Source of the DNA: a virus | DNA length: 30,178 bases | Reading direction: 5' to 3' (one strand) | Virus record (IMG/VR): IMGVR_UViG_3300010430_000342 | Location: 1 to 30,178 of that record | Part shown: piece after piece, positions 11,540-29,812 of the stretch | Layout: every line of letters begins with the position of its first letter | Position numbering within the stretch: position 1 is the stretch's first letter | Notes under the pieces: generated by a model | Databases searched by the model: none | The model's input: only the letters and a program-made list of their open reading frames with translations | Told to the model about the DNA's origin: nothing | Program-made: the position numbers and the translations under genes

Positions 11540-12454
11540 TTATGCTGCGCCAGGCGAACCGAACACCGCACGGGGGTCCGAGAAGCCAAAGCTGTAACGC
11601 TCACGAGCCTTGAAGCGCATGTTGCCGGTGTCGAAGTCGGCTTCCATGCCGGTCGACAGCGGGGTGCGCTCAAAGTGGATGAAGCCACGAGGCGCGTCAG
11701 TCTTCACAAACCAAGCATCAGGGTCGGTCAGGAAGTCATTGACGGTGTAACCATCGGGCAGCATGCCCATCGAACGGATCGCGTTAACGTCGTTGTCTGC
11801 AGTGCCGACACGCAGGTTCGAAACCATCAGACGCTCAGCAACAAACTGCAGCTGGCGAGGGATGATGAGTTTCATGCCGCGCAGGGCAACTTTCAGACCA
11901 CGCTCGTCAACGAAGCCCGCGATGTTGATCAAGGCGTCTTCCAGCGAGGTTTCGTTCAGGTCAGCAGGAACGCTGGGCTCGTTGGCAAAAGTGCCACCGC
12001 TGGTCAGCGGGTGGTCAGTTGCACACAGAGCTTTGCCGTCGCCACCTGCAGTCGGACCTGCATCAAAGGCGTTGTTCAGCACGGCAGCAGCTTTAACCTG
12101 CTTGGTGTGAGCCATCGAACGAGCCAGCGCACGGGTGTAACGCGAACCCAAGCGGTCATAGAGGTTGTCCTCTACGGCTTCTTCGGTCAGCGAGAACGCC
12201 AGCGCAATCGTTTCGTGATTGTAGCGGGCGGTGTACGCTTCGTTGGCATCGTCAAAGTTGATCGCAGAACCTTCGGATTTGGTCGGTGCCGCGCCGAAGC
12301 CCGACAGCATAACCTCTTCCTCAAATGCACGATCCGACGACTCGGTGGTGTAGATTTCGGAGTGCTGGTTTTCGTACCGACCATACTCCATGCCGAAGAG
12401 GGCGTTAAGACCCGGCTCCAGCTCTTTCGCGAGTTGTGCGCGCGAGATAGCCAT
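11540..12454 (-). CDS. Major capsid protein (304 aa)
   Basis: The ATG at 12454 is preceded by AAGGAGG. The protein starts MAISRAQLAKELEPGLNALF and contains TARYNHETIALAFSLTEEAV, LARSMAHTKQVKAAAVLNNA, a GLKVALRGMKLIIPRQLQF segment and the C-terminal MRFKARERYSFGFSDPRAVF. I recognise this pattern as a major capsid protein frequent in marine phage genomes, presumably with the HK97 fold and distantly related to Mu gpT-type heads. It lies downstream of scaffold-like and decoration-type genes and upstream of a strong terminator, as expected for the most abundant head protein. No cleavable prodomain is obvious. Confidence 0.92.
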   Translation of the reverse strand: MAISRAQLAKELEPGLNALFGMEYGRYENQHSEIYTTESSDRAFEEEVMLSGFGAAPTKSEGSAINFDDANEAYTARYNHETIALAFSLTEEAVEDNLYDRLGSRYTRALARSMAHTKQVKAAAVLNNAFDAGPTAGGDGKALCATDHPLTSGGTFANEPSVPADLNETSLEDALINIAGFVDERGLKVALRGMKLIIPRQLQFVAERLMVSNLRVGTADNDVNAIRSMGMLPDGYTVNDFLTDPDAWFVKTDAPRGFIHFERTPLSTGMEADFDTGNMRFKARERYSFGFSDPRAVFGSPGAA

Positions 12455-18839: not shown

Positions 18840-20326
18840 CAATAATACTCCCGTTTACGAGGCGCCTGATCCGCGAAATCAAGCCGCTCTTCATCGTGTA
18901 TAGTCACGAACCCGCCTTGGCGGAAACGCATCAATGCTAGGGTCATACTATCACAAAAGTCATCGTGATCGCCATTCGGAAATGAAGACACCTCTTCAAT
19001 GACCTCTTCTGCAAATCTTTTGTCCTCAGGAGCCCATACCAAGCCCGCCTCAAACAAAGGTGACACCATATGCATTCTAGTTGTCTTATCTACACCACCT
19101 CCGCCTGCACGTCTACCTGGAGAAAAACCCAGGGCGGGAATACCCCGAGCGCGCAGCTCGTCAATCAGAGGTTTACCCGTAGCCTTGGCCTCAATAATGA
19201 CCATGTCCGGTTCCCAGTACTGATGCTCTTCAAAGGCTACTTCTTTTAGCTCCGGAAAGCTCCATCGGCCCCTTTGCGCATCCAAAAGTATCAGGTGATC
19301 CTTGTCCCCCTCCTCGGGTTCAAAGACGCCCCACGTTGTAATGGCACTGTAGTCCGCCGTTTCCTTCTTCGAGAACGCAGTATCGTAGGCTTGAATGATG
19401 TACTTCAGCGGTGGGATCTTCTCTTTCTCCCACTTCCGCCACCACTCGCGGCGCACAATGGCCGAACCCGCACTCGTGGGCTGCTGCTGCCACTGAGCCG
19501 ACCACTTACCAAGCGGAAGTGACGCCTTAATCGACAGAAGTGCGTCTTTTTCCCAAAACTCAGGCCATAGTGGTCTACCAGAAGGCAACAACGCCGGAAA
19601 CTCTACAACTTCCCATTGATCAGCCATGGCATCCGACGTCTGATTTGCTAGCAAACGGCCCGTCAAATCCTTCTTACCCCAACGGGTCATAACCAAAATG
19701 ATGGCGCCGCCAGGCTGAAGACGCTGTCGAGGACCAGAAGTGTACCACTCATAGGCGTGATCAAACGCCGTCTCGCTTAACGCGTCCTGTTCCGAGTGAG
19801 GGTCGTCAATGATGAACAAGTCAGCGCCGCGGCCAGTAACGGCAGCGCCGACACCAGCAGCAAAGTATTCGCCACCCCTGTTAGTGCCCCACTTACCGGC
19901 CCCTTTGTTATCCTCTTTAAGGACGGTGCCTGGGAAGACTTCCTTGTATGCCGGGTCATCAATCAAATCCCTAACCTTGCGACCAAATCGTACCGCCAGT
20001 TCCGTGTTATGTGTCGCTTGAATAATCTTGAGCTTCGGATTCCGGCCCAAAAACCAAGCAGGCATCAAAAATGAAGCAAACTCAGACTTCGAATGACGAG
20101 GCGGCATGTTGATAATCAAACGCTTCAACTCGCCACGCGCAACACGCTCCAGCTTTTCCGCAATAATCCGGTGATGCTCGCCCTCAATGAAGTTCTCATA
20201 CACATGATGCGCAAAGGCCATAAAACTGTTCGTAGCCTTCTCGCGAATATCCAGCTTCTTCTTGGCTTCCGTAAGAGCCAGAATCTCCTTCAGTACCTCA
20301 TCAGGTAAAGCATTAAGATTTGACAT
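18839..20326 (-). CDS. terL: Terminase large subunit (495 aa)
   Basis: The ATG at 20326 is chosen for its ribosome binding site (GGTGGAG) and overlaps the GNAT gene by 14 bases. The ATPase half has a Walker A-like loop PPRHSKSE (75-82), Walker B LFIIDDPHSE (170-179) and a coupling motif LVMTRWGKKD (211-220). The nuclease half has the RNase H-like acidic residues D315 (QAYDTAFSKKETADYS), E379 (MVIIEAKATGKPLIDEL) and the GDHDDFCDSM cluster near 453-459. It pumps DNA into the prohead through the portal and cuts concatemers. The gene is complete and of normal length. Its small-subunit partner lies about 7 kb away on the same strand, beyond the rightward genes. Confidence 0.97.
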   Translation of the reverse strand: MSNLNALPDEVLKEILALTEAKKKLDIREKATNSFMAFAHHVYENFIEGEHHRIIAEKLERVARGELKRLIINMPPRHSKSEFASFLMPAWFLGRNPKLKIIQATHNTELAVRFGRKVRDLIDDPAYKEVFPGTVLKEDNKGAGKWGTNRGGEYFAAGVGAAVTGRGADLFIIDDPHSEQDALSETAFDHAYEWYTSGPRQRLQPGGAIILVMTRWGKKDLTGRLLANQTSDAMADQWEVVEFPALLPSGRPLWPEFWEKDALLSIKASLPLGKWSAQWQQQPTSAGSAIVRREWWRKWEKEKIPPLKYIIQAYDTAFSKKETADYSAITTWGVFEPEEGDKDHLILLDAQRGRWSFPELKEVAFEEHQYWEPDMVIIEAKATGKPLIDELRARGIPALGFSPGRRAGGGGVDKTTRMHMVSPLFEAGLVWAPEDKRFAEEVIEEVSSFPNGDHDDFCDSMTLALMRFRQGGFVTIHDEERLDFADQAPRKREYY

Positions 20327-20777
20327 CCAACTCCACCTTGTAGTTCCCGCCGACAGGCTTAAAACCAAGGCGCTGCAAAAGCTGACCAGTGCGCTCCGCA
20401 GATACCCCGGTCGTTACACCCATGTACAACTCACTAGCACCCATGTCCGTGGCCCAAGATTTAAACTCCTTGAGCAAACGGATCGCGGCCCGTGAACCTC
20501 GGTACTCGGGTTCGATATACCAAACGTAGTCAGAGGCTAACTCTCCGGCACCAAAAAAATATGGGGCCATAGCTCCAGCAATCATACCAACAGGTTTGTC
20601 GCCGTCATATGCCAGCAAACCAAACCCGTTCGGGTTGTTGATAACCATGTGAATGATAGATTGAGCAGCTCTTTCGATGTCAAAAGGGATGACGCTATAC
20701 GCGCCCTCCTGCTGCATGGCGATCCCTAAGGTCAAAATGTCCCGCAAACGCTCGATGGCGAATGTTTTGTATTCCAT
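20313..20777 (-). CDS. GNAT-family N-acetyltransferase (154 aa)
   Basis: The protein shows the GNAT layout: an N-terminal strand and helix, LLAYDGDKPVGMIAGAM (54-70), then motif A DYVWYIEPEYRGSRAAIRLL (83-102) with the acetyl-CoA loop EYRGSRAA, and motif B QLLQRLGFKPVGGNYKVEL (132-150). The family transfers acetyl groups from acetyl-CoA to amines of small molecules or proteins; the substrate here cannot be told. Phage GNATs near packaging genes are known but their targets are mostly unknown. The ATG at 20777 overlaps the upstream stop and the end overlaps terL. Confidence 0.9.
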   Translation of the reverse strand: MEYKTFAIERLRDILTLGIAMQQEGAYSVIPFDIERAAQSIIHMVINNPNGFGLLAYDGDKPVGMIAGAMAPYFFGAGELASDYVWYIEPEYRGSRAAIRLLKEFKSWATDMGASELYMGVTTGVSAERTGQLLQRLGFKPVGGNYKVELDVKS

Positions 20778-21625
20778 TATGCTAAGCTAGCGATCCCAAA
20801 CCGCTGAAGAGCCCTAGTTCCAGCGCCCCCACGAGGACGATAAACACCTGGGCCAACTGATCTCGGGACCGACGGTCCTTTCGCTAGTTGTGACAGGTCT
20901 AAGTATTCTAGTGCATCCGACAAATAACCCATTGCGTCCCCACCCGCAACGTCCCTATTTGCCGCTTTCGATTGTTTCAACATCTCCGCATCCGCCGCAG
21001 CACGCTCTTCCGGCGTGGCGTATACGTCGCCAAACATCCCGTACAATTCTTCCGAAGCCGTAGGCTCCGCACCGCCCATAGTAGAGATACGAGGCGGAGC
21101 ATAACCCCCAGAAAGCTCCTCAGAAGCCAGCAACTGATACCCTTCGGCAATCCGATCATAACCAGACTTGCTGTACTTAGGGTCCGTGCGCCGCCAACGA
21201 ATGTAGTTGTCACCAAGAACGCGGCTCGCGGTCTCCGGATCTACGTCAGGGTTGGACAAAAACTCCTCAACCGTCTTGGCATACGAGGGGTTCTCCTCCA
21301 TCTCCTGGCGAATGAAATCGGTCTGAGCCTGAAGAGCCTCGAAACTAGGCTGAATCGTACCCTTGTCCGTGATCAACCCACGCTCTTCCAAGTACTTCAT
21401 AACCTTAGGAGCGCGAGACCCCTGCCAGCTAAGCATACCCACATTAGTCGCCTTGTTGTACGGATCCGAATGAGACCCAAACAACAACGATGGACGCAAA
21501 CTGTTCTCGCGGTTAATCTCCGCCGTCAAAGCCCGAGACTGCGCATCCGAAAAACCAGAGTTCCGAAACGCAGTGTAGACATCCATAGCGATGTCATTAC
21601 GACTTCTCTCAGCGAAGTTAACCAT
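20777..21625 (-). CDS. Lysozyme-like peptidoglycan hydrolase (282 aa)
   Basis: Residues 10-110 fit the phage tail-lysozyme fold: DVYTAFRNSGFSDAQSRALT, a candidate catalytic Glu at E36 or E40 (AEINRENSLRP), NVGMLSWQGSR (61-71) in place of the usual G-x-Q-W-x-x-R segment, and FEALQAQTDFIRQEME. The C-terminal 150 residues have a DPKYSKSGYDRIAEGYQLLA helix and a Gly/Pro/Arg-rich end (VYRPRGGAGTRALQRFG). There is no signal peptide. It may be the endolysin or a virion-carried lysozyme that opens the wall during entry; the candidate lysis genes upstream favour the first reading, the packaging neighbours the second. Confidence 0.78.
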   Translation of the reverse strand: MVNFAERSRNDIAMDVYTAFRNSGFSDAQSRALTAEINRENSLRPSLLFGSHSDPYNKATNVGMLSWQGSRAPKVMKYLEERGLITDKGTIQPSFEALQAQTDFIRQEMEENPSYAKTVEEFLSNPDVDPETASRVLGDNYIRWRRTDPKYSKSGYDRIAEGYQLLASEELSGGYAPPRISTMGGAEPTASEELYGMFGDVYATPEERAAADAEMLKQSKAANRDVAGGDAMGYLSDALEYLDLSQLAKGPSVPRSVGPGVYRPRGGAGTRALQRFGIASLA

Positions 21626-21918
21626 CAGTACGTGCCCTTGAAGCCCTTACCAGAAACCTGCTCAGATTTGCAGCCGCGGACCATGCCGCCCTTTGCAAAC
21701 TTCTGAGGCATGTCTTCCATCTCACGCTCATAGGACCGACGACCACGCTCCACCGCAGCAGCATCGTCCTCAATATACTTAGGACGAGCCTTCGGGCGAA
21801 CAGAACTCTTCGGCTCAATCGCATCAGGAATAGTAGCTTGATTTGCCGACATCTCATGCTCCGGCAAATATGGGCGATCTTCACGCATCTTAGGGCGTAG
21901 GGATTTTTTGGGAGCCAT
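21625..21918 (-). CDS. Small KGG-motif protein (97 aa)
   Basis: The ATG at 21918 has GGAG 6 bases upstream; a TTG 12 bases further up is less likely. The product begins MAPKKSLRPKMREDRPYLPE, is highly charged and disordered-looking, and ends FAKGGMVRGCKSEQVSGKGF then KGTY. The KFAKGGMVRG...GKGF tail is one I recall from numerous marine phage proteins and echoes the 46-aa protein at 8814-8954. A role in DNA or virion binding is guesswork. Heptamer repeats lie just upstream of its ribosome binding site. Confidence 0.8.
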   Translation of the reverse strand: MAPKKSLRPKMREDRPYLPEHEMSANQATIPDAIEPKSSVRPKARPKYIEDDAAAVERGRRSYEREMEDMPQKFAKGGMVRGCKSEQVSGKGFKGTY

Positions 21919-21926
21919 GTCTATCT

Positions 21927-21946
21927 CCAAGGTCCAAGGTTCAAGG
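21927..21946. repeat. Heptamer tandem repeat (RAGGTYC family), copy a
   Basis: The plus strand reads CCAAGGTCCAAGGTTCAAGG, about two and a half copies of a 7-base unit AAGGTYC. It sits right before the ribosome binding site of the 97-aa gene. Related arrays occur at 23147-23176, 23819-23842, 28708-28730 and inside both nuclease genes. Confidence 0.7.
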
Positions 21947-21950
21947 AACT

Positions 21951-22325
21951 CTAACAGACTTCCATAAATTCCTCAATCGTTCTTCGCTGATTAGCCTCGT
22001 TGAACTCATTAGGCAAGATCCGAAACTTCGCAGTATCAAACGAACCCTCGCGCTTCATCAGCAGCAACTGACGGTCCAAGGCCACAAAACAATACCAGTC
22101 AACAACCGTCTTAGGAGTATGGTACGTGTACATCTCCTTCGTGTCGTTACCATAACGGACAGGCTTGCTGCTCGACTTGACTTGCACCGTGAGTATCGAA
22201 CCTTGGACCTTGCACCAAAGGTCAGATCCCGCGCGGTCCACATGGTGTACCTCGACGCCATACGTCTCCAGGATGTACGCAGCCAGGAACTCGCCTGCCC
22301 GCCCTACACTCGTGCTTTTCGACAC
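21951..22325 (-). CDS. PD-(D/E)XK nuclease-like protein (124 aa)
   Basis: The frame starts with GTG at 22325; no ATG is available and the ribosome binding site is weak. Residues 6-50 match a PD-(D/E)XK endonuclease core of the PF11645 type: SVGRAGEFLAAYILETYGVE (E12), then AGSDLWCKVQGSILTVQVKS with D35 and the Q48-V-K50 triad. The rest has VDWYCFVALDRQLLLMKREG and a C-terminal helix. Such proteins cut branched or foreign DNA, or act as resolvases during packaging. Its nucleotide sequence at 22199-22217 carries a copy of the heptamer repeat. Confidence 0.82.
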   Translation of the reverse strand: MSKSTSVGRAGEFLAAYILETYGVEVHHVDRAGSDLWCKVQGSILTVQVKSSSKPVRYGNDTKEMYTYHTPKTVVDWYCFVALDRQLLLMKREGSFDTAKFRILPNEFNEANQRRTIEEFMEVC

Positions 22326-22389
22326 AACAAATTCCGCGCTTGGGTGTCTTTCGCGCAGACCGTAGCACAGTTTTTATGCGATTACTATG

Positions 22390-22674
22390 TCACAGCAATA
22401 GGTTACGGTAGAGCTCAATCGTCTCTTTCTCTTCCGCTAACTCTCCAGCATCGCGCTTGCGCTCAGCCAAAAGCCTCCGAAGAGCCTTAACGTTGTAACC
22501 CTTCGACTTAACAACAGTCAAAATGTCCTGGCGGTCACGCTGCAAATCCGCCATCTGCGCGTCCAACGACTCTAAATCCTGAACAAACTCCTGAAGCTCC
22601 TTCGCAGCCTCTTCAGTAGCCTTCAGGTTGTGCTTCTTGAAATCGTCGTCATCCTTAAATGGAATCACGGACAT
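22390..22674 (-). CDS. DUF2312 / GapR-like DNA-binding protein (94 aa)
   Basis: The protein starts MSVIPFKDDDDFKKHNLKAT. Residues 20-60 form a coiled coil (KELQEFVQDLESLDAQMADL), followed by the DUF2312 signature GYNVKALRRLLAERKRDAGE and EEKETIELYRNLL. DUF2312 includes GapR, an alphaproteobacterial nucleoid protein that clamps overtwisted DNA and stimulates type II topoisomerases. A phage copy may manage DNA topology in replication or packaging, or interfere with the host GapR; this is inferred. The ATG lies one base after the stop of the upstream gene. The helical length and key basic residues look intact. Confidence 0.88.
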   Translation of the reverse strand: MSVIPFKDDDDFKKHNLKATEEAAKELQEFVQDLESLDAQMADLQRDRQDILTVVKSKGYNVKALRRLLAERKRDAGELAEEKETIELYRNLLL

Positions 22675-22675
22675 C

Positions 22676-23146
22676 TTATCCTCCCGTTCGTGTTCTAAAG
22701 AACTCGTTATATGCGTCTAAAAGCTCTAGCTCCTCGGGACTCGCTTCTCCGGCCTCGGCCTTGCGCTGCAAGGCAAGAACTTCGCCCATGTATAATTCCA
22801 GCATATTTGCATCTGAGTTCGTTGAGCTTGGCTTACCTAGATCAAACGACATGTATTCTTTGGTTTCAGGATCATAGTACGGAAGACCAGGACGGTTATC
22901 AAAGTCATCAGACCCAATAAAATCATCATACCTAAGATCGCGATACGCCTCTGACACCCCCACGGGAATACGGTCTTGTTTCGTCTCCAAAGGAATATGC
23001 CGGGTGGTGTCACGGTTGTCCTGACCAAGGCGGTGGATCTGTCGCTCCGTGGACAAATAACCACCCGTCGGGGCATCACGCATACGCGCAATATCGCCCA
23101 TGCTCAGATACTGCGCAATAATGCCTTCAATTTTGTCGTTAGCCAT
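22676..23146 (-). CDS. Hypothetical acidic protein (156 aa)
   Basis: The ATG at 23146 follows the heptamer repeat array directly, without a classical ribosome binding site. The sequence begins MANDKIEGIIAQYLSMGDIA and contains YLSTERQIHRLGQDNRDTTR, DDFIGSDDFDNRPGLPYYDP and a helical C-terminal part (LELYMGEVLALQRKAEAGEA, LLDAYNEFF). I do not recognise a family. No membrane helix, Cys cluster or enzyme motif is seen. Its place before the GapR-like gene, with one base between them, suggests they are co-translated. Confidence 0.75.
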   Translation of the reverse strand: MANDKIEGIIAQYLSMGDIARMRDAPTGGYLSTERQIHRLGQDNRDTTRHIPLETKQDRIPVGVSEAYRDLRYDDFIGSDDFDNRPGLPYYDPETKEYMSFDLGKPSSTNSDANMLELYMGEVLALQRKAEAGEASPEELELLDAYNEFFRTRTGG

Positions 23147-23176
23147 AGGTCCAAGGTCCGAGGTTCAAGTCCCAAG
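23147..23176. repeat. Heptamer tandem repeat (RAGGTYC family), copy b
   Basis: About four degenerate units read AGGTCC-AAGGTCC-GAGGTTC-AAGTCCC-AAG on the plus strand. The array abuts the start codon of the 156-aa gene and overlaps the 3' end of the tiny membrane-peptide gene. In the sense (minus) direction it occupies the place where a ribosome binding site would be expected. Confidence 0.7.
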
Positions 23177-23272
23177 AACCCTACCATGCATACAAAAATA
23201 ATTCCACAGGCAACCAGAAAAAGCTCCTAGCACGAGCCCGGCCATAAACAGAATACTCAGGCAAATCCTCAC
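23165..23272 (-). CDS. Tiny membrane peptide or lipoprotein (35 aa), possible lysis component
   Basis: A GTG at 23272 overlaps the stop of the 161-aa gene by four bases (GTGA), strong evidence of coupling. The 35-residue product reads MRICLSILFMAGLVLGAFSG then CLWNYFCMHGRVLGT. Residues 3-22 form one hydrophobic segment, and FSGC resembles a lipobox around C21. It could be a small holin-like peptide, an outer spanin fragment, or a membrane anchor. The sequence is too short for family recognition. Confidence 0.6.
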   Translation of the reverse strand: MRICLSILFMAGLVLGAFSGCLWNYFCMHGRVLGT

Positions 23273-23754
23273 GAACCAACATCACCAGGCTCCTCAATCT
23301 GAAAATTCAACATCGGAGGATACGTCACAATCTGCTCACCCTCCGGACAATCATACTTAATCTGAGCCAGCAATGTCGCAGTCCCAGGACGAACCTTGTG
23401 TACATCCATCTCATGCAAAAATACATAAAATCCAAACTTCTCAACCACACCACTCGCAGCTCCGCTAAATCGAGTCGCACTAGGTGTAGCAGGATAAACA
23501 ATGTAGTCAGCATCCCTAATCTCCACAGCAAAACCAACCACCTCACAGTCATCCCGCAACTTGGTCCTCGCAGCTACAACCTTAAACCCACCGTCAGCTG
23601 GACCACCAACAATCTCAAACTGCTCCGGAGCCCACTCCAAAATAGGACGACTCCAGAACTCAAAACCCAACTTGCCGCTCAACGTAACTACACCGCTGAA
23701 CACGCCAACAACCGCGGCCATAATGCCCGCGATAACCTTAATCTCATCCAACAT
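23269..23754 (-). CDS. Membrane-anchored protein of unknown function (161 aa), candidate lysis region
   Basis: The ATG at 23754 (MLDEIKVIAGIMAAVVGVFS) overlaps the previous stop as TAATG, so an earlier in-frame start at 23787 is not preferred. Residues 5-24 are a hydrophobic helix, followed by GKLGFEFWSRPILEWAPEQF and a beta-rich domain (KVVAARTKLRDDCEVVGFAV, FGFYVFLHEMDVHKVR, ATLLAQIKYDCPEGEQIV). The layout is that of a protein anchored by an N-terminal helix with a globular part on one side of the membrane. It could serve in lysis, superinfection exclusion or envelope interaction. No family was recognised. Confidence 0.75.
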   Translation of the reverse strand: MLDEIKVIAGIMAAVVGVFSGVVTLSGKLGFEFWSRPILEWAPEQFEIVGGPADGGFKVVAARTKLRDDCEVVGFAVEIRDADYIVYPATPSATRFSGAASGVVEKFGFYVFLHEMDVHKVRPGTATLLAQIKYDCPEGEQIVTYPPMLNFQIEEPGDVGS

Positions 23755-23948
23755 TAAGCAGGCTCCCCAGAAATCCACTCTAAACAATGACCCCCGGATA
23801 TCTTCGCACCATCAACCAACCGAGGTGCAAGGACCAAGGATCCAGCGTCGAGAGCCGCGTAGCACGACTCTAGGTCCTCGACCATCGGACCTGCGATGGT
23901 CTTACAACCTAGCTCAAGGCTACATATGAGGATCAACGGGACAAACAT
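23754..23948 (-). CDS. Small exported protein (64 aa), possible lysis component
   Basis: The ATG at 23948 is preceded by AGGA at suitable spacing. The N-terminus MFVPLILICSLELGCKTIAG is a short hydrophobic signal; LELGC only loosely fits a lipobox because Glu occupies -3. The mature part has further Cys residues (DLESCYAALDAG; GGHCLEWISGEP) that could form a disulphide. It is the first gene of the long leftward operon and couples to the 161-aa membrane protein. A spanin-like or periplasmic role is possible but speculative. Confidence 0.68.
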   Translation of the reverse strand: MFVPLILICSLELGCKTIAGPMVEDLESCYAALDAGSLVLAPRLVDGAKISGGHCLEWISGEPA

Positions 23949-24050
23949 GCTACCGATCCTACCACAAAGACCCGAACGAAAATATCCCCGCGATTTTTGT
24001 AAGCGGAAAACATGTGGCGCATTTGCCTGATTAAGAGGGGGATGGGTAAC

Positions 24051-24079
24051 TTGTGGTCTACTTGTGGCCCAACGTAATT
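24051..24079 (+). promoter_or_regulatory. Candidate promoter F (TTGTGG, 17 bp, GTAATT)
   Basis: The -35 TTGTGG at 24051-24056 and -10 GTAATT at 24074-24079 are 17 bases apart. The first nine bases are identical to candidate promoter A at 24247. The decamer TAGGTCTGAC begins at the end of this -10, where a repressor could block initiation. Confidence 0.45.
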
Positions 24080-24220
24080 AGGTCTGACATTTTTTATGAT
24101 ACTAATAATAAAGGTCGGCGCGCACGGAGGCGGGGGCGCAAAAAGGGGGGATGGGGGTCGCGCGGTGCGCGGCCCGCGGGCCTTGGTTGGCTGGAGTAAC
24201 CCCGGCACCTACCCTTTAGT

Positions 24221-24235
24221 ATAGGTCTGACCTAT
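24221..24235. promoter_or_regulatory. Operator-like palindrome ATAGGTC-T-GACCTAT
   Basis: These 15 bases are a perfect palindrome around a central T, ending 11 bases before the -35 of promoter A. Its core TAGGTCTGAC recurs at 24079-24088, next to promoter F. The pairing of a symmetric site and a half-like site near two promoters is typical of repressor or activator binding sites. Confidence 0.6.
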
Positions 24236-24246
24236 CCCTCTACCCC

Positions 24247-24329
24247 TTGTGGTCTGGTCACATACCGCTTGCATCTGACATGCATTTGCCCCTACTCTGT
24301 AGGAGTAGGGCGGCGATGGTCGCGGCCCT
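24247..24329 (+). promoter_or_regulatory. Candidate promoter A with two mutually exclusive leader hairpins
   Basis: TTGTGG (24247-24252) is followed 17 bases later by a weak -10 TGCATC, inside the inverted repeat TGCAT-CTGAC-ATGCA (24270-24284). Downstream, CCCTACTC-TGTAG-GAGTAGGG (24290-24310) forms an 8-bp stem. AGGGC at 24307-24311 can instead pair with GCCCT at 24325-24329, enclosing GCGA-TGG-TCGC. The two structures share 24307-24310, so they cannot form together. The second ends 21 bases before the start codon at 24351. Confidence 0.5.
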
Positions 24330-24350
24330 CTTAGCAGAAGGAAAGCCAAC

Positions 24351-24608
24351 ATGGCACAACAGATCACCAAACTACTGAACGCGTTCGTCGCAGCCGAGAC
24401 CGAGGACGAGATCCAGCACGGTTCTCAGCTCGAGGTGGCCAAGGCGGAGCTCGAGGCCCTCGGTCGATTGAAGCGGTCGGTCGACAGCATGATCAAGGCC
24501 TACCGCGAGATGGCAATCGAGGACGGGATGGCCTACCACAAAGAGATCTGGACCGAGGAACACACGGTCAAGGGTCACTTCAAAAAGCGGTTCACTTGGG
24601 TGGACTAA
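24351..24608 (+). CDS. Small helical early protein (85 aa)
   Basis: The ATG at 24351 follows AGAAGGAAAG. The product begins MAQQITKLLNAFVAAETEDE and contains KAELEALGRLKRSVDSMIKA and YREMAIEDGMAYHKEIWTEE, ending HFKKRFTWVD. It is mostly charged helix with an aromatic C-terminus. I do not recognise a family. It is the first gene of the rightward island and has a structured leader, so it may be a regulated early protein, but no function can be read from the sequence. Confidence 0.82.
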   Translation: MAQQITKLLNAFVAAETEDEIQHGSQLEVAKAELEALGRLKRSVDSMIKAYREMAIEDGMAYHKEIWTEEHTVKGHFKKRFTWVD

Positions 24609-24615
24609 CACAACC

Positions 24616-24635
24616 GGCCGGGGGCAACCCCGGCC
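24616..24635 (+). other. Intercistronic hairpin with GCAA tetraloop
   Basis: GGCCGGGG-GCAA-CCCCGGCC forms an 8-bp GC stem closed by a GNRA-type loop just after the stop at 24608. No U-run follows, so it is not a classical terminator. It may block 3' exonucleases, mark a processing site, or separate expression of neighbours. Confidence 0.7.
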
Positions 24636-24661
24636 ACCATCAACCAAAGAGGAATAAGACA

Positions 24662-24829
24662 ATGCAGATCAAACCAATGGGCCTATTCAACACCCCCGAG
24701 GATTGGAAAGTAATTGAAGACTGGATCATGGCGCACGCGCCCGAGGACCGGATGCACCTGTGGACCGCAGCCGGGATGGCGTGGAACCTAGCGGCCAAGC
24801 TGACCGCGCCCGAGACCGAGGACGCATAA
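24662..24829 (+). CDS. Small early protein (55 aa), unknown function
   Basis: The ATG at 24662 is chosen because GAGGAA lies 8 bases upstream and the longer frame enters the hairpin region. The product starts MQIKPMGLFNTPEDWKVIED and has WIMAHAPEDRMHLWTAAGMA followed by WNLAAKL. It is a compact helical, Trp-rich protein. I recall short proteins with a ...PEDWKVIEDWI-like segment in phage early regions but cannot name a family. It shares the leftward neighbour's transcript unless the hairpin stops it. Confidence 0.78.
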   Translation: MQIKPMGLFNTPEDWKVIEDWIMAHAPEDRMHLWTAAGMAWNLAAKLTAPETEDA

Positions 24830-24833
24830 ATAC

Positions 24834-24883
24834 TTGTGGGGTGGTTGTGGCTGTGCTATGATCACCCCATGGCAACCCGCCAT
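24834..24883 (+). promoter_or_regulatory. Promoter B plus 5' hairpin
   Basis: TTGTGG (24834-24839), 17 bases, then TATGAT (24857-24862) gives the best -10 of the set. The hairpin ATGGC-AACCC-GCCAT (24869-24883) begins 7 bases after the -10, where transcription should start. A strong ribosome binding site (AGGAGG) follows for the gene at 24900. Confidence 0.75.
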
Positions 24884-24899
24884 TTTAGGAGGAAATACA

Positions 24900-25211
24900 A
24901 TGGCAAACCCTTTCGCAAAATCCCGCCCGACCATGAAGCCCTATGCAATTTACCAGGGCCCAGGTATCACCTGGCATGTGGTCAAGACATACAAGATGCC
25001 CAAGAGCGAGGCCAAAGATCCCTATGCCCGCTGGCTTGTGGCAGCAAAGAGCGACGCCACGTTCGGCTCGTTCGAGGGTGGCGATACATACAAGCGCGAC
25101 GTCACGTCTTACGGGCGCCTGGTGGCAGCTGATCCAGAGTGGATCCAGGCCTATCGCCCTGGCTTTGATGGCCGCCTGCCCACGCCAGAGGAATACTTGG
25201 CCGACGCATGA
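24900..25211 (+). CDS. Early protein (103 aa), unknown function
   Basis: The ATG at 24900 has AGGAGG 8 bases upstream; the longer frame begins inside the promoter. The protein begins MANPFAKSRPTMKPYAIYQG and contains GITWHVVKTYKMPKSEAKDP, YARWLVAAKSDATFGSFEGG and YGRLVAADPEWIQAYRPG. It looks like a compact alpha/beta domain with conserved-looking Trp and Tyr residues. No family was recognised. Its own strong promoter and 5' hairpin suggest high early expression. Confidence 0.85.
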   Translation: MANPFAKSRPTMKPYAIYQGPGITWHVVKTYKMPKSEAKDPYARWLVAAKSDATFGSFEGGDTYKRDVTSYGRLVAADPEWIQAYRPGFDGRLPTPEEYLADA

Positions 25212-25253
25212 TGCACCGGTGTGGGGCCTGGCAACAGGCCCCCATCCCGTGCA
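25212..25253 (+). other. Long imperfect hairpin with GCAA tetraloop
   Basis: TGCAC at 25212 pairs with GTGCA at 25249, and GGGGCCTG-GCAA-CAGGCCCC (25223-25242) forms the inner 8-bp stem. Most bases between them also pair, giving a long rod directly after the stop at 25211. It has the same loop as the hairpin at 24616 and again lacks a U-run. Confidence 0.7.
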
Positions 25254-25282
25254 CCAGGCACGTTAACTAGAAAGGATACGCT

Positions 25283-25468
25283 ATGACCTACTACATTACC
25301 TGGATTGTGGATGGCCCCGCAATACTTACCGCGATCAATGGCGAGATCGAGCTGACAATCGATCAGCTGATGGAAGCCGCCTTTGCGGTCGAGGATATCG
25401 AGCCCGGCTCAAACTATGAGATCTGCTCGATCATCCGCGCCGATAACGCCCATGAGGTTATATACTAA
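25283..25468 (+). CDS. Small acidic early protein (61 aa)
   Basis: The ATG at 25283 follows GAAAGGA. The product is MTYYITWIVDGPAILTAING then EIELTIDQLMEAAFAVEDIE and YEICSIIRADNAHEVIY. It is acidic, with a beta strand, a helix and a second strand, a layout that could form a small inhibitor-like fold. Acidic early phage proteins often bind host enzymes, but nothing here identifies a target. No separate promoter was seen; it probably shares the transcript from promoter B. Confidence 0.8.
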   Translation: MTYYITWIVDGPAILTAINGEIELTIDQLMEAAFAVEDIEPGSNYEICSIIRADNAHEVIY

Positions 25469-25476
25469 CCAGCCCC

Positions 25477-25521
25477 GGCCCTGGCGCGCTTCACTGTGTG
25501 TGGGTTGCGCGCGCCAGGGCC
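25477..25521 (+). other. 13-bp inverted repeat after an early gene
   Basis: GGCCCTGGCGCGC (25477-25489) is perfectly complementary to GCGCGCCAGGGCC (25509-25521), with a 19-base loop. It starts 8 bases after the stop at 25468. There is no U-run, so it may be an mRNA-end protector or processing site rather than an intrinsic terminator. Confidence 0.7.
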
Positions 25522-25625
25522 TAAGTGCCTGGGCGCCGCGGCCCGAGACCCGCAGGGCGCAGGCCTCGCTTCGCTCGGAAAAATTTGTCAACCCGCAGGG
25601 CGTTGTTTTCTCAATAAAAAAGTTC

Positions 25626-25676
25626 TTGTGCTCTGGTTGTTGACGTGATACAAAACTCTTAGGGCAATACCGCCCT
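25626..25676 (+). promoter_or_regulatory. Promoter C plus 5' hairpin
   Basis: TTGTGC (25626-25631), 17 bases, then TACAAA (25649-25654). The hairpin AGGGC-AATACC-GCCCT (25661-25676) begins 7 bases after the -10 box, and CTTAACCGAAGGA follows as the ribosome binding region for the gene at 25698. The spacer shares TCTGGT with candidate promoter A. Confidence 0.75.
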
Positions 25677-25697
25677 CTTAACCGAAGGAAACATCAG

Positions 25698-25913
25698 ATG
25701 AAAAAATCCTATGTCCAAGAAAACACCCTCAAGGTCACCGTCACCATCGACCTGGGCGAGATCAACGACCTGATCAAAGAGCTCGAGCCGGTCGGCAGCG
25801 ACGAAGGCAGCAACAACTGGAAAGCCCGCGACCTGGTGACGAACCTCAAAAAGATGCGCCGCGAGGCAGCGGAAGAGGCCAAGCGCGAGTTCGAGCGGAT
25901 GGCCCAGGACTAA
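25698..25913 (+). CDS. Small charged early protein (71 aa)
   Basis: The ATG at 25698 has GAAGGA 7 to 8 bases upstream. The product begins MKKSYVQENTLKVTVTIDLG and then EINDLIKELEPVGS, followed by a long charged helix (RDLVTNLKKMRREAAEEAKR). It combines a beta hairpin with a coiled-coil-like helix, a shape seen in DNA-binding or antitoxin-like proteins, but no family is recognised. It is transcribed alone, between promoter C and an intrinsic terminator. Confidence 0.82.
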   Translation: MKKSYVQENTLKVTVTIDLGEINDLIKELEPVGSDEGSNNWKARDLVTNLKKMRREAAEEAKREFERMAQD

Positions 25914-25920
25914 CACCACC

Positions 25921-25946
25921 AGCCGGGGCCTCGTGCCCCGGCTTTT
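25921..25946 (+). terminator. Intrinsic terminator
   Basis: AGCCGGGGC-CTCGT-GCCCCGGCT forms a perfect 9-bp stem followed by TTTCGC, directly after the stop at 25913. The U-run is short, but the stem is strong. It would close the single-gene transcript from promoter C. Confidence 0.75.
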
Positions 25947-26003
25947 CGCGCACCCCACCTGCCAGGCCCTCGGGCCTGGCCCTTTTGTCCTCGGACCTCG
26001 GCC

Positions 26004-26024
26004 CTCTTATACATAGTATAAGAG
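26004..26024. promoter_or_regulatory. Perfect 21-bp palindrome CTCTTATAC-ATA-GTATAAGAG
   Basis: Nine-base arms surround ATA in an otherwise GC-rich gap. The site lies about 100 bases upstream of promoter D. Its AT-rich arms and symmetry fit a protein-binding operator better than a terminator, as no U-run follows. Confidence 0.55.
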
Positions 26025-26028
26025 CCAG

Positions 26029-26117
26029 CGCGCAGGGCGCGCAGGGCCGACGCGCAGGGCGCAGGGCATAACAGAAAAAACCACGGCGCGCAGGGCGCAG
26101 GGCATCGGCCCGCAGGG
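26029..26117. repeat. GC-rich GCAGGGC repeat cluster
   Basis: The word CGCAGGGC or GCAGGGC occurs repeatedly, including GCGCAGGGCGCGCAGGGC at the left end and CGCAGGGCGCAGGGCATC before CGGCCCGCAGGG at the right end. The right end matches the 22-bp tandem unit found at 27191-27256. Smaller copies lie at 25549-25563 and 25591-25602, so every long gap of the early island carries some. Confidence 0.7.
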
Positions 26118-26126
26118 TTTTTTCTA

Positions 26127-26176
26127 TTGTGCTTTGATTGTGGATCTGGCACAATATCCGCGGGCAATTCCGCCCT
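26127..26176 (+). promoter_or_regulatory. Promoter D plus 5' hairpin
   Basis: TTGTGC (26127-26132), 17 bases, then CACAAT (26150-26155). The hairpin GGGC-AATTCC-GCCC starts at 26162, 7 bases after the -10 box, and differs from the promoter C hairpin by one loop base. AGGAG follows for the gene at 26192. Confidence 0.75.
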
Positions 26177-26191
26177 TTAACAGGAGTTAAC

Positions 26192-26872
26192 ATGCAACAC
26201 GCCGTCATTTACAAGGGGCCGAGCCTATTGGATGGCCAGCCAATCGTTGTTATTGCAACTTATTCGAAGCGCAACACCAAAACCGGGCACGTCGTGCAAA
26301 CCTACATCGTGCGGGAAGACATGAACCCGCTGGAAGCCAGCAAAACCGGGGCAGACTATTCTATCTGCGGCGACTGTGTCATGCGCGGCACCCCGACCGA
26401 TGACCCCGCGCGCAAGCAAGCCAAGGGCCGCCGCTGCTACGTTAACTTAGGCCAGGGCGTTTTGATTGTGTGGCGCGCTTATCAGCGCGGCGTATACCAG
26501 GCGGGCAGCGCGCGTGACATGGGCCGCGGCCGATTTGTGCGCGTCGGCACATACGGTGACCCCGGCGCCGTTCCGTCGGCCGTGTGGGATGAACTGCTAT
26601 CAGAGGCCAGCACCTGGACAGCATACAGCCATCAAAGCGGATGGCGCCCCGATATTGCCATGCAGAGCGCGGACAACTACGCCCAGGCGTGGGCCCATTG
26701 GCGCGCCGGGCGCCGCACGTTCCGCGTGGTGACCGGGCTTGACGAGATCGACACCGCCCACGAGGCGCTTTGCCCGGCATCAAAAGAGGCGGGGCGCCGC
26801 GTTCAATGCACCGCTTGCAAGCTGTGCAAGGGCGGCACCGCTGCAAAATCAATCGCAATCGTGGAGCATTAA
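26192..26872 (+). CDS. Conserved phage protein with two Cys pairs (226 aa)
   Basis: The ATG at 26192 has AGGAG 6 bases upstream. The product starts MQHAVIYKGPSLLDGQPIVV and contains DYSICGDCVMRGTPTDDPAR, then RRCYVNLGQGVLIVWRAYQR, and ends with VQCTACKLCKGGTAAKSIAI. I recall this SICGDC...CYVN.GQ..L.VWRAY pattern in proteins of phages and plasmids without assigned function. The CGDC and CTACKLC motifs suggest zinc or metal binding. Aromatic-rich middle segments (HQSGWRPDIAMQS, YAQAWAHWRAGRRTFRVVT) suggest a globular domain. A nucleic-acid-linked early role is plausible but unproven. Confidence 0.88.
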   Translation: MQHAVIYKGPSLLDGQPIVVIATYSKRNTKTGHVVQTYIVREDMNPLEASKTGADYSICGDCVMRGTPTDDPARKQAKGRRCYVNLGQGVLIVWRAYQRGVYQAGSARDMGRGRFVRVGTYGDPGAVPSAVWDELLSEASTWTAYSHQSGWRPDIAMQSADNYAQAWAHWRAGRRTFRVVTGLDEIDTAHEALCPASKEAGRRVQCTACKLCKGGTAAKSIAIVEH

Positions 26873-26874
26873 TC

Positions 26875-27120
26875 ATGTGGAATCGCACCTATTACGCAGT
26901 AAAAACCCGGCACCCCGTAAAGGGGAGCCGTTGGGATGGGCAGCATTTGTTCCGTGTAAGCGCAGACGAGCGGCCGGAGGGCCGCTTGTACTACGCCGCG
27001 TCCGACAACTTCGGATGCGGCAAGACGCACCCCACGCCGGATGGCGCCATTGCGCTATTGGCACAGGACAACGGCGCAGAGGTCTTGAACATCTGCTATC
27101 AATACGAGGATGAAATCTAA
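26875..27120 (+). CDS. Small early protein (81 aa), unknown function
   Basis: The ATG at 26875 is two bases after the upstream stop, with GGAG 9 bases upstream. The product begins MWNRTYYAVKTRHPVKGSRW and contains DGQHLFRVSADERPEGRLYY, GCGKTHPTPDGAIALLAQD and ILN-type strands ending CYQYEDEI. No Walker motif is present despite GCGKTH, since the context is wrong for a P-loop. It forms a two-gene unit with the Cys-pair protein and ends at a strong terminator. No family recognised. Confidence 0.8.
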   Translation: MWNRTYYAVKTRHPVKGSRWDGQHLFRVSADERPEGRLYYAASDNFGCGKTHPTPDGAIALLAQDNGAEVLNICYQYEDEI

Positions 27121-27125
27121 GGACC

Positions 27126-27150
27126 GGGGGCCACGGCCCCCTTTTCTTTC
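27126..27150 (+). terminator. Intrinsic terminator ending the early island
   Basis: GGGGGCC-AC-GGCCCCC (27126-27141) forms a 6-7 bp GC stem followed by TTTTCTTTC, six bases after the stop at 27120. It separates the rightward genes from the convergent nuclease gene. Confidence 0.85.
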
Positions 27151-27190
27151 GCCATTGCTGGCGCAATCACCGACCAAAACACCCAGCCCG

Positions 27191-27256
27191 CAGGGCGCAG
27201 GGCGCAGAGCATCGGCCCGCAGGGCGCAGAGCATCGGCCTGCAGGGCGCAGAGCAC
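27191..27256. repeat. Tandem 22-bp GC-rich repeat at the convergent junction
   Basis: Two full 22-bp units (27213-27234 and 27235-27256), CGGCCYGCAGGGCGCAGAGC plus AY, follow a partial third unit. The last unit ends at the stop codon of the nuclease gene. The same unit occurs in the cluster near 26100. No spacers are present, so it is not a CRISPR. Confidence 0.8.
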
Positions 27257-27675
27257 TAACCCCGACCCAAAACCCCAGCATAATGATCAAAAGACGCAGC
27301 CCGCAGAGCATCCCAAAGCTCACCGTGGCCCTTGAACATCGATCCTTGAACCTCGGACAGGGGTTTCTGCACCAAAGCAACCGCCTCTGACCCCGGAATC
27401 AAATGAATGTAGCCCGAAGAGAGGCTCTTTACCAAGAAAAACGAAAGGCCCCCGCGCGCCCAATATGCAGTGTGCCACGCGACCTGATGGGGAGATACTT
27501 TTGTGATCACATTTTTCTGGACCTTAATCTCAACCCAGAAGGGTAATCCTTTCCACAGCACATGCACATCGGGAATCCCACCACCAGCGCGGTTCTCAAC
27601 CCTCGTCGTCAGTGCGTCCTTTGGTTTGTTTGCTCGAATTGAGTTCCAGAAGTTCGCTTCGGGCCCCTTGCTCAT
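27256..27675 (-). CDS. PD-(D/E)XK nuclease (VRR-NUC / resolvase-like, 139 aa)
   Basis: The ATG at 27675 overlaps the small-terminase gene by 80 bases. The product begins MSKGPEANFWNSIRANKPKD and has RVENRAGGGIPDVHVLWKGL (D36) and PFWVEIKVQ (E49, K51), then SPHQVAWH (Q64). This is the order of the PD-(D/E)XK VRR-NUC type fold that cuts branched DNA. Phages often place such a gene next to terminase, where it can clear branches before packaging. Its 3' region carries a heptamer-repeat copy (27338-27362). The C-terminal 40 residues are less typical. Confidence 0.85.
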   Translation of the reverse strand: MSKGPEANFWNSIRANKPKDALTTRVENRAGGGIPDVHVLWKGLPFWVEIKVQKNVITKVSPHQVAWHTAYWARGGLSFFLVKSLSSGYIHLIPGSEAVALVQKPLSEVQGSMFKGHGELWDALRAASFDHYAGVLGRG

Positions 27676-28252
27676 TTGGTGTGACGTCCTTCATTGGCTG
27701 GGCTTCGATCTGGAAGGCCTGCGGGTATTTCTCCTGCAGCGCAGCCAAGCGGGCAGTGATCTCATCCCGCGACATCTGATCGAGCGTGTTGATATTTTCG
27801 CGACGGTCGATTGTCAGACCGCCCAGCGCAGACCGGATCTTCTCTGCGTTGATGGCAGCGGAAAACTGCCCTGCCTCTTCGGCACCCCTAGAAAGCTTCG
27901 CAAGCCGCTCAAGCTGACCGATGGCTGTCACGCCATACCGACGCTGGCGCTCCTCACGCAGCTCCTGCACACGCTCTGCCACATGGGGGAAATCTTTGCC
28001 GTTCAAAAGTTTCTTGGCGTACTCACCAGCGGTGGCATGAGAGAACCCGGCGCGGCGGGCGCACTCGGTGTTCGAATAAATGCCCTCGGCCACAAGCTTT
28101 GCAAAAGTTTCCTGCCGGGTGGACATGCGGCCCTTGCGGGGATCTGGCTTTCCGTCTGACCGGATATACACACCGTCTGGGTAGTCGTCGTTCTGCACCC
28201 AAGTATCTTCGTTCTTATCCCAGTAGTCTGGTTCGTTCTTTCTATACGGCAT
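27596..28252 (-). CDS. terS: Terminase small subunit (218 aa)
   Basis: The ATG at 28252 is selected because GGAGGA lies directly upstream; an earlier TTG is less likely. Residues 1-40 are acidic and aromatic. Residues 44-85 form a helix-turn-helix (RQETFAKLVAEGIYSNTECA, then RRAGFSHATAGEYAKKLLN), as in terminase small subunits that recognise the packaging site. A coiled segment follows (VAERVQELREERQRRYGVTA) and a polar C-terminus. It initiates packaging with the large terminase, which lies about 7 kb further along on the same strand. The intervening rightward gene island is unusual. Confidence 0.85.
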   Translation of the reverse strand: MPYRKNEPDYWDKNEDTWVQNDDYPDGVYIRSDGKPDPRKGRMSTRQETFAKLVAEGIYSNTECARRAGFSHATAGEYAKKLLNGKDFPHVAERVQELREERQRRYGVTAIGQLERLAKLSRGAEEAGQFSAAINAEKIRSALGGLTIDRRENINTLDQMSRDEITARLAALQEKYPQAFQIEAQPMKDVTPNEQGARSELLELNSSKQTKGRTDDEG

Positions 28253-28312
28253 CTCGTCCTCCAAGATGTTGATCGCCCACAACTTACAACAGGCAGGCCC
28301 ATCCTTTCAAGA

Positions 28313-28328
28313 TGAGTTCCCCTATAGA
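28313..28328 (-). promoter_or_regulatory. Leftward CTATAGGG site, T7-promoter-like
   Basis: The minus strand reads TCTATAGGGGAACTCA. It matches 28573-28588 on the plus strand in 15 of 16 bases. CTATAGGG is the core of T7-type single-subunit polymerase promoters. Initiation at GGG would place the start about 70 bases before the small-terminase ATG. Confidence 0.45.
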
Positions 28329-28387
28329 TCTTTTTCTAGGGCAATTCCCTCAAACAAAAACGGAAAAGTCGCGCGCGGGCGGCCAGA

Positions 28388-28422
28388 CAACTCGTTACAA
28401 CTCGTTACAGCATCGTTACAGG
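28388..28422 (+). repeat. Iteron cluster 1 (CTCGTTACA)
   Basis: Three direct copies of the GTTACA word follow each other at 10-base spacing: ACTCGTTACA, ACTCGTTACA and GCATCGTTACA. Ten-base periodicity places them on one face of the helix, as expected for cooperative protein binding. Confidence 0.8.
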
Positions 28423-28487
28423 TAAAACAAAATAAATGTAACCACTGATTCACCTTTGGAATCAACAACTTACACCTCAAAAATATC

Positions 28488-28510
28488 ACTCGTTACACTC
28501 GTTACAGCAT
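28488..28510 (+). repeat. Iteron cluster 2 (CTCGTTACA)
   Basis: Two copies at 9-base spacing are followed by GCAT, as in cluster 1 (ACTCGTTACA, CTCGTTACAGCAT). An AT-rich segment of roughly 65 bases separates the two clusters. Confidence 0.8.
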
Positions 28511-28572
28511 TTTCAAAATTCCAAATCAGTTAAACCAAAACCCCCAGATAGCGTAACCTATGTAACGACTGC

Positions 28573-28588
28573 TCTATAGGGAAACTCA
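28573..28588 (+). promoter_or_regulatory. Rightward CTATAGGG site, T7-promoter-like
   Basis: The plus strand reads TCTATAGGGAAACTCA, preceded by TGTAACGACTGC. The combination ACGACT then CTATAGGG closely resembles the T7 consensus, but with one extra base between the two parts. It is the inverted partner of 28313-28328. Confidence 0.45.
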
Positions 28589-28684
28589 AAACCACCCCCA
28601 TAAACACCTGCAAACAAACAACTTTTTCAGCCAATCGCCCAGGATTTTGGTTACAAGACCATGTGACGACGGCGTGACGGACCC

Positions 28685-28699
28685 CGTAACGGTGTTACG
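28685..28699. promoter_or_regulatory. Perfect palindrome CGTAAC-GGT-GTTACG
   Basis: The arms are two inverted copies of the GTTAC word found in the iterons. It lies 67 bases upstream of promoter E and may be the symmetrical high-affinity site for the same protein. Confidence 0.65.
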
Positions 28700-28707
28700 A
28701 AAAGCAC

Positions 28708-28730
28708 CGAGGTCCGAGGTTCGAGGCCCG
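28708..28730. repeat. Heptamer tandem repeat (RAGGTYC family), copy c
   Basis: Three units read GAGGTCC-GAGGTTC-GAGGCCC on the plus strand. It is the G-rich variant of the arrays at 21927 and 23147 and lies between the palindrome and promoter E. Confidence 0.7.
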
Positions 28731-28765
28731 ATGTCAGGGGTACACCAACCCCCTAACATTTTATC

Positions 28766-28814
28766 TTGCCAACCCCCGCCATTGCGTGTAGCTTGTTCGT
28801 GGGCAACAACGCCC
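28766..28814 (+). promoter_or_regulatory. Promoter E plus 5' hairpin
   Basis: TTGCCA (28766-28771), 17 bases, then TAGCTT (28789-28794). The hairpin GGGC-AACAAC-GCCC (28801-28814) starts 7 bases after the -10 box, the same spacing as at promoters B, C and D. AAGGAG follows for the gene at 28835. Confidence 0.65.
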
Positions 28815-28834
28815 GTCAACCAAGGAGAAGACAG

Positions 28835-29026
28835 ATGTATATGGTTTCGTACACCTTGAACCATGGCGGTAACAATCTTGAGGACATTTTTGTATTAATC
28901 GAGGATCAGGCTGCGGCTGATCACTACGTAAAGCATACGTTGCTTCCGCTGGACCACCTGCATTGCTGGGCTGTGTCGAAGGTGTTGTCGGCGTCTGAGC
29001 CGCATTGGGTAGAGGAGGCAGCATAA
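28835..29026 (+). CDS. Small early protein (63 aa), unknown function
   Basis: The ATG at 28835 has AAGGAG 8 to 9 bases upstream, and the longer frame begins inside promoter E. The product begins MYMVSYTLNHGGNNLEDIFV and has LIEDQAAADHYVKHTLLPLD, ending CWAVSKVLSASEPHWVEEAA. It looks like a small alpha/beta protein with a strand, a helix and a strand. No family was recognised. Its stop overlaps the next start as TAATG. Confidence 0.8.
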   Translation: MYMVSYTLNHGGNNLEDIFVLIEDQAAADHYVKHTLLPLDHLHCWAVSKVLSASEPHWVEEAA

Positions 29027-29454: not shown

Positions 29455-29625
29455 ATGACCGCCCCCATGCACAAGCACCGCCAGCGTTCCAAGCCCATCA
29501 CATTGGGAGCGCGTCTGGCTGCATCGAAGAACGCGCGCAAGCGCAATGGCGACGTCGCTCCGGTGACGTTGTCGAAAGAACCATGGACCAAGAACCGAGA
29601 GGAGAAAACCAAGAATGCCAAATGA
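29455..29625 (+). CDS. Tiny basic protein (56 aa)
   Basis: The ATG at 29455 follows AGGTGG. The product begins MTAPMHKHRQRSKPITLGAR and continues LAASKNARKRNGDVAPVTLS, ending with a Lys-rich tail. It is strongly basic and probably binds nucleic acid, though no family was recognised. Its last 11 bases overlap the next gene, whose ribosome binding site lies within it. Coupling and context support it as a real gene. Confidence 0.7.
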   Translation: MTAPMHKHRQRSKPITLGARLAASKNARKRNGDVAPVTLSKEPWTKNREEKTKNAK

Positions 29626-29812
29626 AGGACGAGGGCTGGGTGAGTACCAGAAGCGCCAGCGCAAGCCAGTGACGATCCGCGGCGTGACCTACGAGAGCCG
29701 CGCTGCTGCAGCTAGGGCGCTGGGTGTGAGCGAGCAGACGGTCAACCGCGCGGTGCGTCGTGGGACCGAGGACCAAGTAGCGATGCGGAAGGAGAAAGCT
29801 GATGGCAATTAA
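29615..29812 (+). CDS. Small helix-turn-helix (NUMOD-like) DNA-binding protein (65 aa)
   Basis: The ATG at 29615 has GAGGAG 10 to 11 bases upstream. After a basic N-terminus the core reads PVTIRGVTYESRAAAARALG then VSEQTVNRAVRRGTEDQV. This fits the NUMOD1-type DNA-binding repeat found at the ends of homing endonucleases: a strand pair with G-x-x-Y-x-S followed by a helix-turn-helix. No nuclease domain is attached, so it may be a regulator or the remains of a homing endonuclease. It overlaps the next gene by 11 bases. Confidence 0.85.
   Translation: MPNEGRGLGEYQKRQRKPVTIRGVTYESRAAAARALGVSEQTVNRAVRRGTEDQVAMRKEKADGN

Follow-up and report, generated by a model that had tools for sequence, protein, structure and literature searches.

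A repeat array between the divergent operons of a marine podophage-like genome: probable replication-origin iterons whose word co-varies, in related phages, with the wing of the phage primase

What is the function of a dense cluster of short GTTAC-type repeats located between two divergent phage operons, and which protein reads it? This question is raised by the DNA stretch analyzed here (the window), a linear virus record of 30,178 bp that covers part of a marine podophage-like genome. The late genes, encoding tail, capsid (Pfam Phage_capsid_4) and portal proteins as well as terL (18839–20368) and terS, reside on the minus strand, and the early genes are confined to a short plus-strand stretch from position 28835 onward. 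The gene for the terminase small subunit, terS (PHROG 51; 27596–28252, minus strand), is the first gene of the late operon and flanks the array; its ATG start at 28252 was set by comparison with the relatives L006 and L005. On the far side lies the first early ORF (28835–29026, plus strand). The first-pass annotation had placed the array in the gap between divergent operons, and this gap was found to comprise effectively 582 bp (28253–28834). Its G+C content amounts to 40% in the interval 28380–28660 compared to 53% for the window, the AT-rich segment adjoining the repeats, and a poly-T tract is located near the array in many relatives. No DNA similarity between the array region and known phages was found, and no tRNA was found in the window. 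The genes terS and terL are usually adjacent; in the window (18839–28252), about 7 kb lie between them. A small early protein encoded at 29615–29812 features weak HTH/NUMOD1 similarity.

A recount gave eleven GTTAC or GTAAC words between positions 28394 and 28698 (starting at 28394, 28404, 28415, 28438, 28492, 28501, 28553, 28562, 28650, 28686, and 28694), the number originally reported. The other 56 copies are distributed over 29.8 kb, corresponding to 0.57 per 305 bp, in agreement with the earlier estimate of about 0.6 expected by chance. Equal density elsewhere in the genome had been named as a finding that would refute the proposal, but the array is the window's densest 312-bp stretch for these words. 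The Poisson probability for eleven words is approximately 3 × 10⁻¹¹ per place and 10⁻⁶ over the window, and first-order Markov versions of the gap contained 1.3 copies on average and at most seven (5000 trials). CGCGC and similar low-complexity GC 5-mers reach 11–13 copies per 305 bp elsewhere in the window; the count by itself does not make the array unique.

The full word is CTCGTTACA, of which four exact copies exist in the 30-kb record, all of them within the array and on the plus strand (28391–28399, 28401–28409, 28489–28497, and 28498–28506). The second copy lies 10 bp and the fourth 9 bp past the preceding iteron, and a further plus-strand iteron, ATCGTTACA (28412–28420, 8/9 match), follows the second copy at 11 bp, so that the direct-repeat clusters described previously at 9–10 bp spacing were recovered with a spacing of 9–11 bp. 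Degenerate inverted copies are also present on the minus strand, namely GTGGTTACA (28437–28445, 7/9 match), an inverted GTAAC word at 28553–28557 representing a weak iteron (GCGTAACCT), and GTCGTTACA (28561–28569, 8/9, one mismatch); an outlying plus-strand iteron, TTGGTTACA (28647–28655), matches at 7/9 positions. The main clusters are bracketed by a pair of 16-bp inverted repeats centred on CTATAG, absent from the first-pass annotation, the left arm of which, TGAGTTCCCCTATAGA (28313–28328), is kept in relatives, and the right arm of which is TCTATAGGGAAACTCA (28573–28588). The perfect palindrome CGTAAC-GGT-GTTACG noticed earlier was located at about 28685–28699. Two criteria for an iteron-type origin, tandem short intergenic repeats at approximately helical spacing and an AT-rich segment beside them, are met by this arrangement.

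To follow the array beyond the window, TerS relatives were taken from IMG/VR. Relative L005 carries the same array as the window. The next nearest relatives, L006 and L007 (TerS 76%), contain no GTTAC at all; they possess the window's array layout, but built on TGGTACGAG. Each group of relatives was found to have its own word of six to seven bases in 4–12 copies upstream of terS (GTACCA, GTGACA, GTACTCA, GTTCTCA, GTATCCA, GTCCTCA, GTCATCA, GTAATCA, GTAAACA, or TGACTCA), and array position and spacing persist, with the word differing in concert at every site. In the window clade, the word takes the form CTCGT-NN-CA, NN being TA in the window, AC in L006/L429, GA in L421/L425/L426/L428, and mixed in L013. 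Words of the sister clades follow the form GT-x3-x4-x5-CA (GTACTCA, GTTCTCA, GTATCCA, GTCCTCA, GTCATCA, GTAATCA, and GTAAACA) and are usually arranged as three words, a spacer of about 45 bp and three inverted words, complemented by a single word adjoining a CTATAG site and a poly-T tract. The concerted nature of the change is illustrated by L070/L073, in which all words read GTACTCA, versus L072/L077/L084, in which all read GTTCTCA, with nearly the same flanks. Temperate-phage immunity operators (stoperators) are characterized by numerous sites across the genome together with an encoded repressor and integrase; the words considered here are concentrated in a single array, which holds 4 of 13 genome-wide copies of the respective word in G001 and 5 of 20 in G002. 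The search for the motif in related phages proposed previously therefore gave a divided result: the array is kept, whereas the GTTAC word itself is not. Taking the lack of GTTAC conservation literally as a refutation would have misled, because the array persists with another word. Dense short repeats were also observed near terL in L144 (864–1199, with CGAGAA occurring 27 times in 336 bp) and L145 (2567–2902).

The annotation had stated that the binding protein is not evident in the window, which is consistent with our results, since the protein co-varying with the word is encoded outside of it. In the relatives, this protein is a primase of approximately 508 aa (Pfam AEP-TOTE PF22548, 56.9 bits versus a gathering cut-off of 27; PHROG 21866, primase), encoded in the early region about 8–9 kb from the array. 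Near-isogenic pairs were informative in this respect. L199 (GTATCCA) and G002 (GTCATCA) share an AlpA-like protein, a DEAD helicase and other proteins at 99–100% identity, and their primases are 98% identical, with 7 of the 11 differences among 508 positions falling into residues 466–483 (P = 2 × 10⁻⁸). Similarly, TerS, the AlpA-like protein, the RHH protein and the DEAD helicase are 100% identical in L431 (GTAAACA) and L432 (TGACTCA), the primases 97%, and 7 of 14 differences lie within the same 18 residues (P = 2 × 10⁻⁷). For L438/L444, L440/L444 and L438/L440, the corresponding fractions were 8/16, 5/19 and 5/21. No wing clustering was observed between L223 and L225, which differ by one wing change (N481T) among 26 scattered primase differences. 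As judged from these comparisons, the AEP-TOTE primase is the protein following the word in the sister clades.

All variable primase columns (353) were scanned blind, structural information being left aside, and column 471 proved to be the best for base 5 of the word (nMI 0.82, runner-up 0.28; reached in 0 of 300 permutations) and column 481 as the best for base 3 (nMI 0.46, runner-up 0.21; 3 of 300 permutations), the permutation test ignoring kinship. No clear single primase residue emerged from the column scan for base 4. At residue 471, asparagine corresponds to T, alanine or serine to A, and histidine to C at base 5, which holds in 22 of 22 genomes; at residue 481, threonine goes with A, and asparagine or lysine with C or T at base 3, with one exception (L358). 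On a tree of primase residues 1–440, i.e., without the wing, base 5 and residue 471 each change seven times, and all four independent pairs agree, four pairs alone being unable to reach 0.05. The rule was fixed before new genomes were fetched, and it gave both bases correctly in five out of five genomes or groups (L440/L454, L444, L456, L466, and L432/L433), L456 being the least independent of these due to its fairly close relationship to L225. L432 obeys the rule at both bases despite its TG start instead of GT. In the TGACTCA word of L432/L433, the otherwise constant GT start is altered, and their primases carry E470, most relatives having Q at this position. The K481 genomes G001, G003, and L189, as well as L338, combine GTCCTCA or GTTCTCA with two copies of GTACTCA in their arrays, as though a lysine at residue 481 accepted alternative bases at word position 3.

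AlphaFold models of the primase (mean pLDDT 79.6 at full length and 83.8 for the isolated C-terminal domain) predict an N-terminal AEP domain, nearest to CRISPR-associated Prim-Pol (Z 20), and a winged helix at the C-terminus. Residues 471 and 481 are placed opposite each other in the predicted wing hairpin (466–473/479–488). The nearest solved folds for the wing domain are TcpK-oriT and the C-terminal parts of Cch and SaPIbov1 Rep, these matches being weak and tied (Z 6–7).

For the window itself, this partner is inferred from the sister clades, since the array of the window clade (CTCGTNNCA) was not found on one contig with a primase, and no contig of the clade reaches the gene. The window-clade primase was sought via the outermost L005 protein, a promoter-motif scan and a primase search across clade contigs, and the contig scan with a primase query returned distant primases only, the five best of them without arrays. 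That the window's own, unsequenced primase reads CTCGTTACA is consequently an inference.

The array probably represents replication-origin iterons bound by the winged helix of the phage's own primase. Its presence, its conserved placement, the concerted change of the word and the co-variation with wing residues are established at the level of sequence comparison, and binding and origin firing are inferred. Each 9-bp copy would serve as a double-stranded site for the C-terminal winged helix of the AEP-TOTE primase, the beta-hairpin wing of which would read the variable bases of the word. At a spacing of 9–11 bp, equivalent to one helical turn, several primases could load side by side. They may then melt the AT-rich region or mark it, and would at this site prime the DNA synthesis carried out with the UvrD-type helicase and family-A polymerase of the phage. 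The initial proposal, in which an operator array was the alternative to an iteron-type origin, is supported by our data; since the array is kept in relatives and its words co-vary with the primase wing, the iteron/origin alternative is favoured. GC skew, which had been suggested as a check, does not contribute to this preference. The cumulative minimum coincides with the array in G001 (7358) and G002 (34163), moves off it once the mean is removed, and coincides with the switch in gene orientation; no skew switch at terS was detected in the isolates HTVC023P, HTVC027P, and 023Pt_psg01, the genes of which lie mostly on one strand. As the minimum follows gene orientation, GC skew was dropped as evidence.

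Among the other explanations, a pure operator array survives best, but it appears unlikely. In this case, the words would be bound by the winged helix of the primase, or by a different protein, to regulate the promoters of the divergent early and late operons, e.g., by shutting off the early genes, and would have no origin function. The location between divergent operons would suit such a role, as would additional words that some arrays carry near the presumed promoter of terS (L070: CCGTACTCACCGTACTATAACTTG) and word hairpins with T runs that look like terminators. Such hairpins, formed by two inverted group words and followed by a T run, were observed in L006 (2328–2386), in L013 (upstream of terS, at a distance of about 400 bp), and, at the same place, in L425 and L421; they resemble intrinsic terminators built from iterons, and their counterpart in the window, the palindrome at 28685–28699, lacks a T run. 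However, the co-varying protein is a replication primase and not a dedicated repressor, and the dedicated small DNA-binding proteins do not track the word: the AlpA-like protein is identical in L223/L225, L199/G002, L431/L432, and L440/L444 despite word differences, and the RHH protein is identical in L037 and L042, the words of which differ, as well as in L431/L432. Because the array lies between divergent operons, an additional regulatory role at these promoters is not excluded, and a dual use as operator and origin is compatible with the iteron explanation.

Recognition of the words by another early protein, such as a methyltransferase, the GRP-type HTH protein or the product of a variable early gene, is very doubtful. 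Some early genes do diverge more than the primase within pairs, as in L199 versus G002 (MTase 88%, DUF 82%, and GRP-HTH 83% identity). However, the HTH domain of the GRP-type protein, encoded beside a coiled-coil gene, is nearly identical across different words and differs between genomes sharing one word, the methyltransferase was seen in the G002/L199 pair only, and none of these proteins has residues predicting the word. The putative m5C DNA methyltransferase gene (G002 35079–36077; L199 1254–2264) lies near the array and ranks among the more divergent genes of this pair.

Slightly less credible still is a pac/cos packaging site recognised by TerS, the gene of which starts beside the array. 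terS adjoins the array in every relative, and tandem sites at helical spacing could, from general knowledge, suit a TerS ring. On the other side, five genomes (L070, L073, L072, L077, and L084) encode full-length identical TerS proteins next to two different words, and L431 and L432, with 100% identical TerS, have unrelated words (GTAAACA versus TGACTCA). The words are therefore not TerS sites, and this speaks against packaging as their function, although cleavage at some other position within the gap is not excluded. Finally, chance clustering of a short word, for which only the comparable densities of other 5-mers in GC-rich, low-complexity parts could be cited, can be set aside as already refuted by the conserved layout and the concerted word change across many relatives.

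The proposed replication-origin iterons read by a primase wing share features with several known systems. In SaPI Rep, the C-terminal domain recognises short iterons, and residues 400–538 of the SCCmec initiator Cch2 bind AAGTG-containing repeats (PMC7581432). As proposed for the phage, the C-terminal domain of a replication protein acts on iterons, and Cch (5dgk) and SaPIbov1 Rep (8tch) are among the near folds; in SaPI Rep, Cch, and Cch2, the domain is part of an initiator helicase, whereas in the phage it belongs to an AEP-TOTE primase. Since the primase has Pfam matches to AEP only and the UvrD-type helicase is a separate gene, the fused-helicase criterion of SaPI Rep/Cch is not met, and, unlike these systems, the phage has a separate helicase plus a polA gene in a lytic-type genome. 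TcpK of plasmid pCW3 is a winged helix reading a 9-nt tandem repeat mainly via its beta-wing in the major groove (PMC6137059). The TcpK-oriT complex is the best structural match of the primase wing domain (5vfx, Z 7.1, 82 residues), but TcpK is a conjugation accessory protein acting with oriT and not a primase, and at 6% identity no homology is claimed. In PLE RepA, the DNA-binding domain and the iterons co-vary as exchangeable modules, driven by the ICP1 origin-directed nuclease Odn (PMC8263062); RepA belongs to the RepA_N family, has iterons of about 30 bp and exchanges whole domains, in contrast to the 9-bp words and wing point changes of the phages. Sequence-specific AEP initiation has been described for pRN1 ORF904 and NrS-1 PrimPol (GTG, and TTTGGTTA or GTGA, respectively; PMC4234260, PMC8718748). 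These motifs are read on a single-stranded template, their recognition being ascribed to the helix-bundle domain, whereas in the phages it is the C-terminal wing that co-varies, with words scattered over both strands at a helical spacing.

The same TerL/TerS/primase/PolA/DEAD gene set is present in HTVC023P-type pelagiphages, the TerL proteins of which are 50–61% identical to that of the window. The cultured HTVC023P (L166) has 11 CTAGGAA words genome-wide, five of which are gathered in a 91-bp segment upstream of terS (11680–11770), so that an isolate, too, possesses an array, built on a further word. An origin, iterons or the intergenic region are not mentioned in the main text of the publication on these genomes (PMC9599517), the part of it considered here.

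Co-variation of initiators and iterons is already known, e.g., for PLE RepA (PMC8263062). What is new is that the words of these phages switch in concert, that this is assigned to the primase wing, and that a two-residue code applies. The co-variation names both the origin and its initiator; the literature consulted yielded no description of either for these phages. In practice, the word predicts which primase goes with which metagenome fragment. A single small purified domain would suffice for testing the residue-to-base code, and the phages offer a natural series of origin-specificity switches. It seems somewhat more plausible than otherwise that a large group of marine phages repeatedly re-addresses its origin, all iterons and two or more facing wing residues changing together by a simple code, with satellites, rival phages or origin-directed nucleases as possible sources of selection. 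This raises the question of why lytic-type phages diversify their origin specificity so fast, for which replicon incompatibility between co-infecting phages, satellites, and origin-targeting defence are possible drivers.
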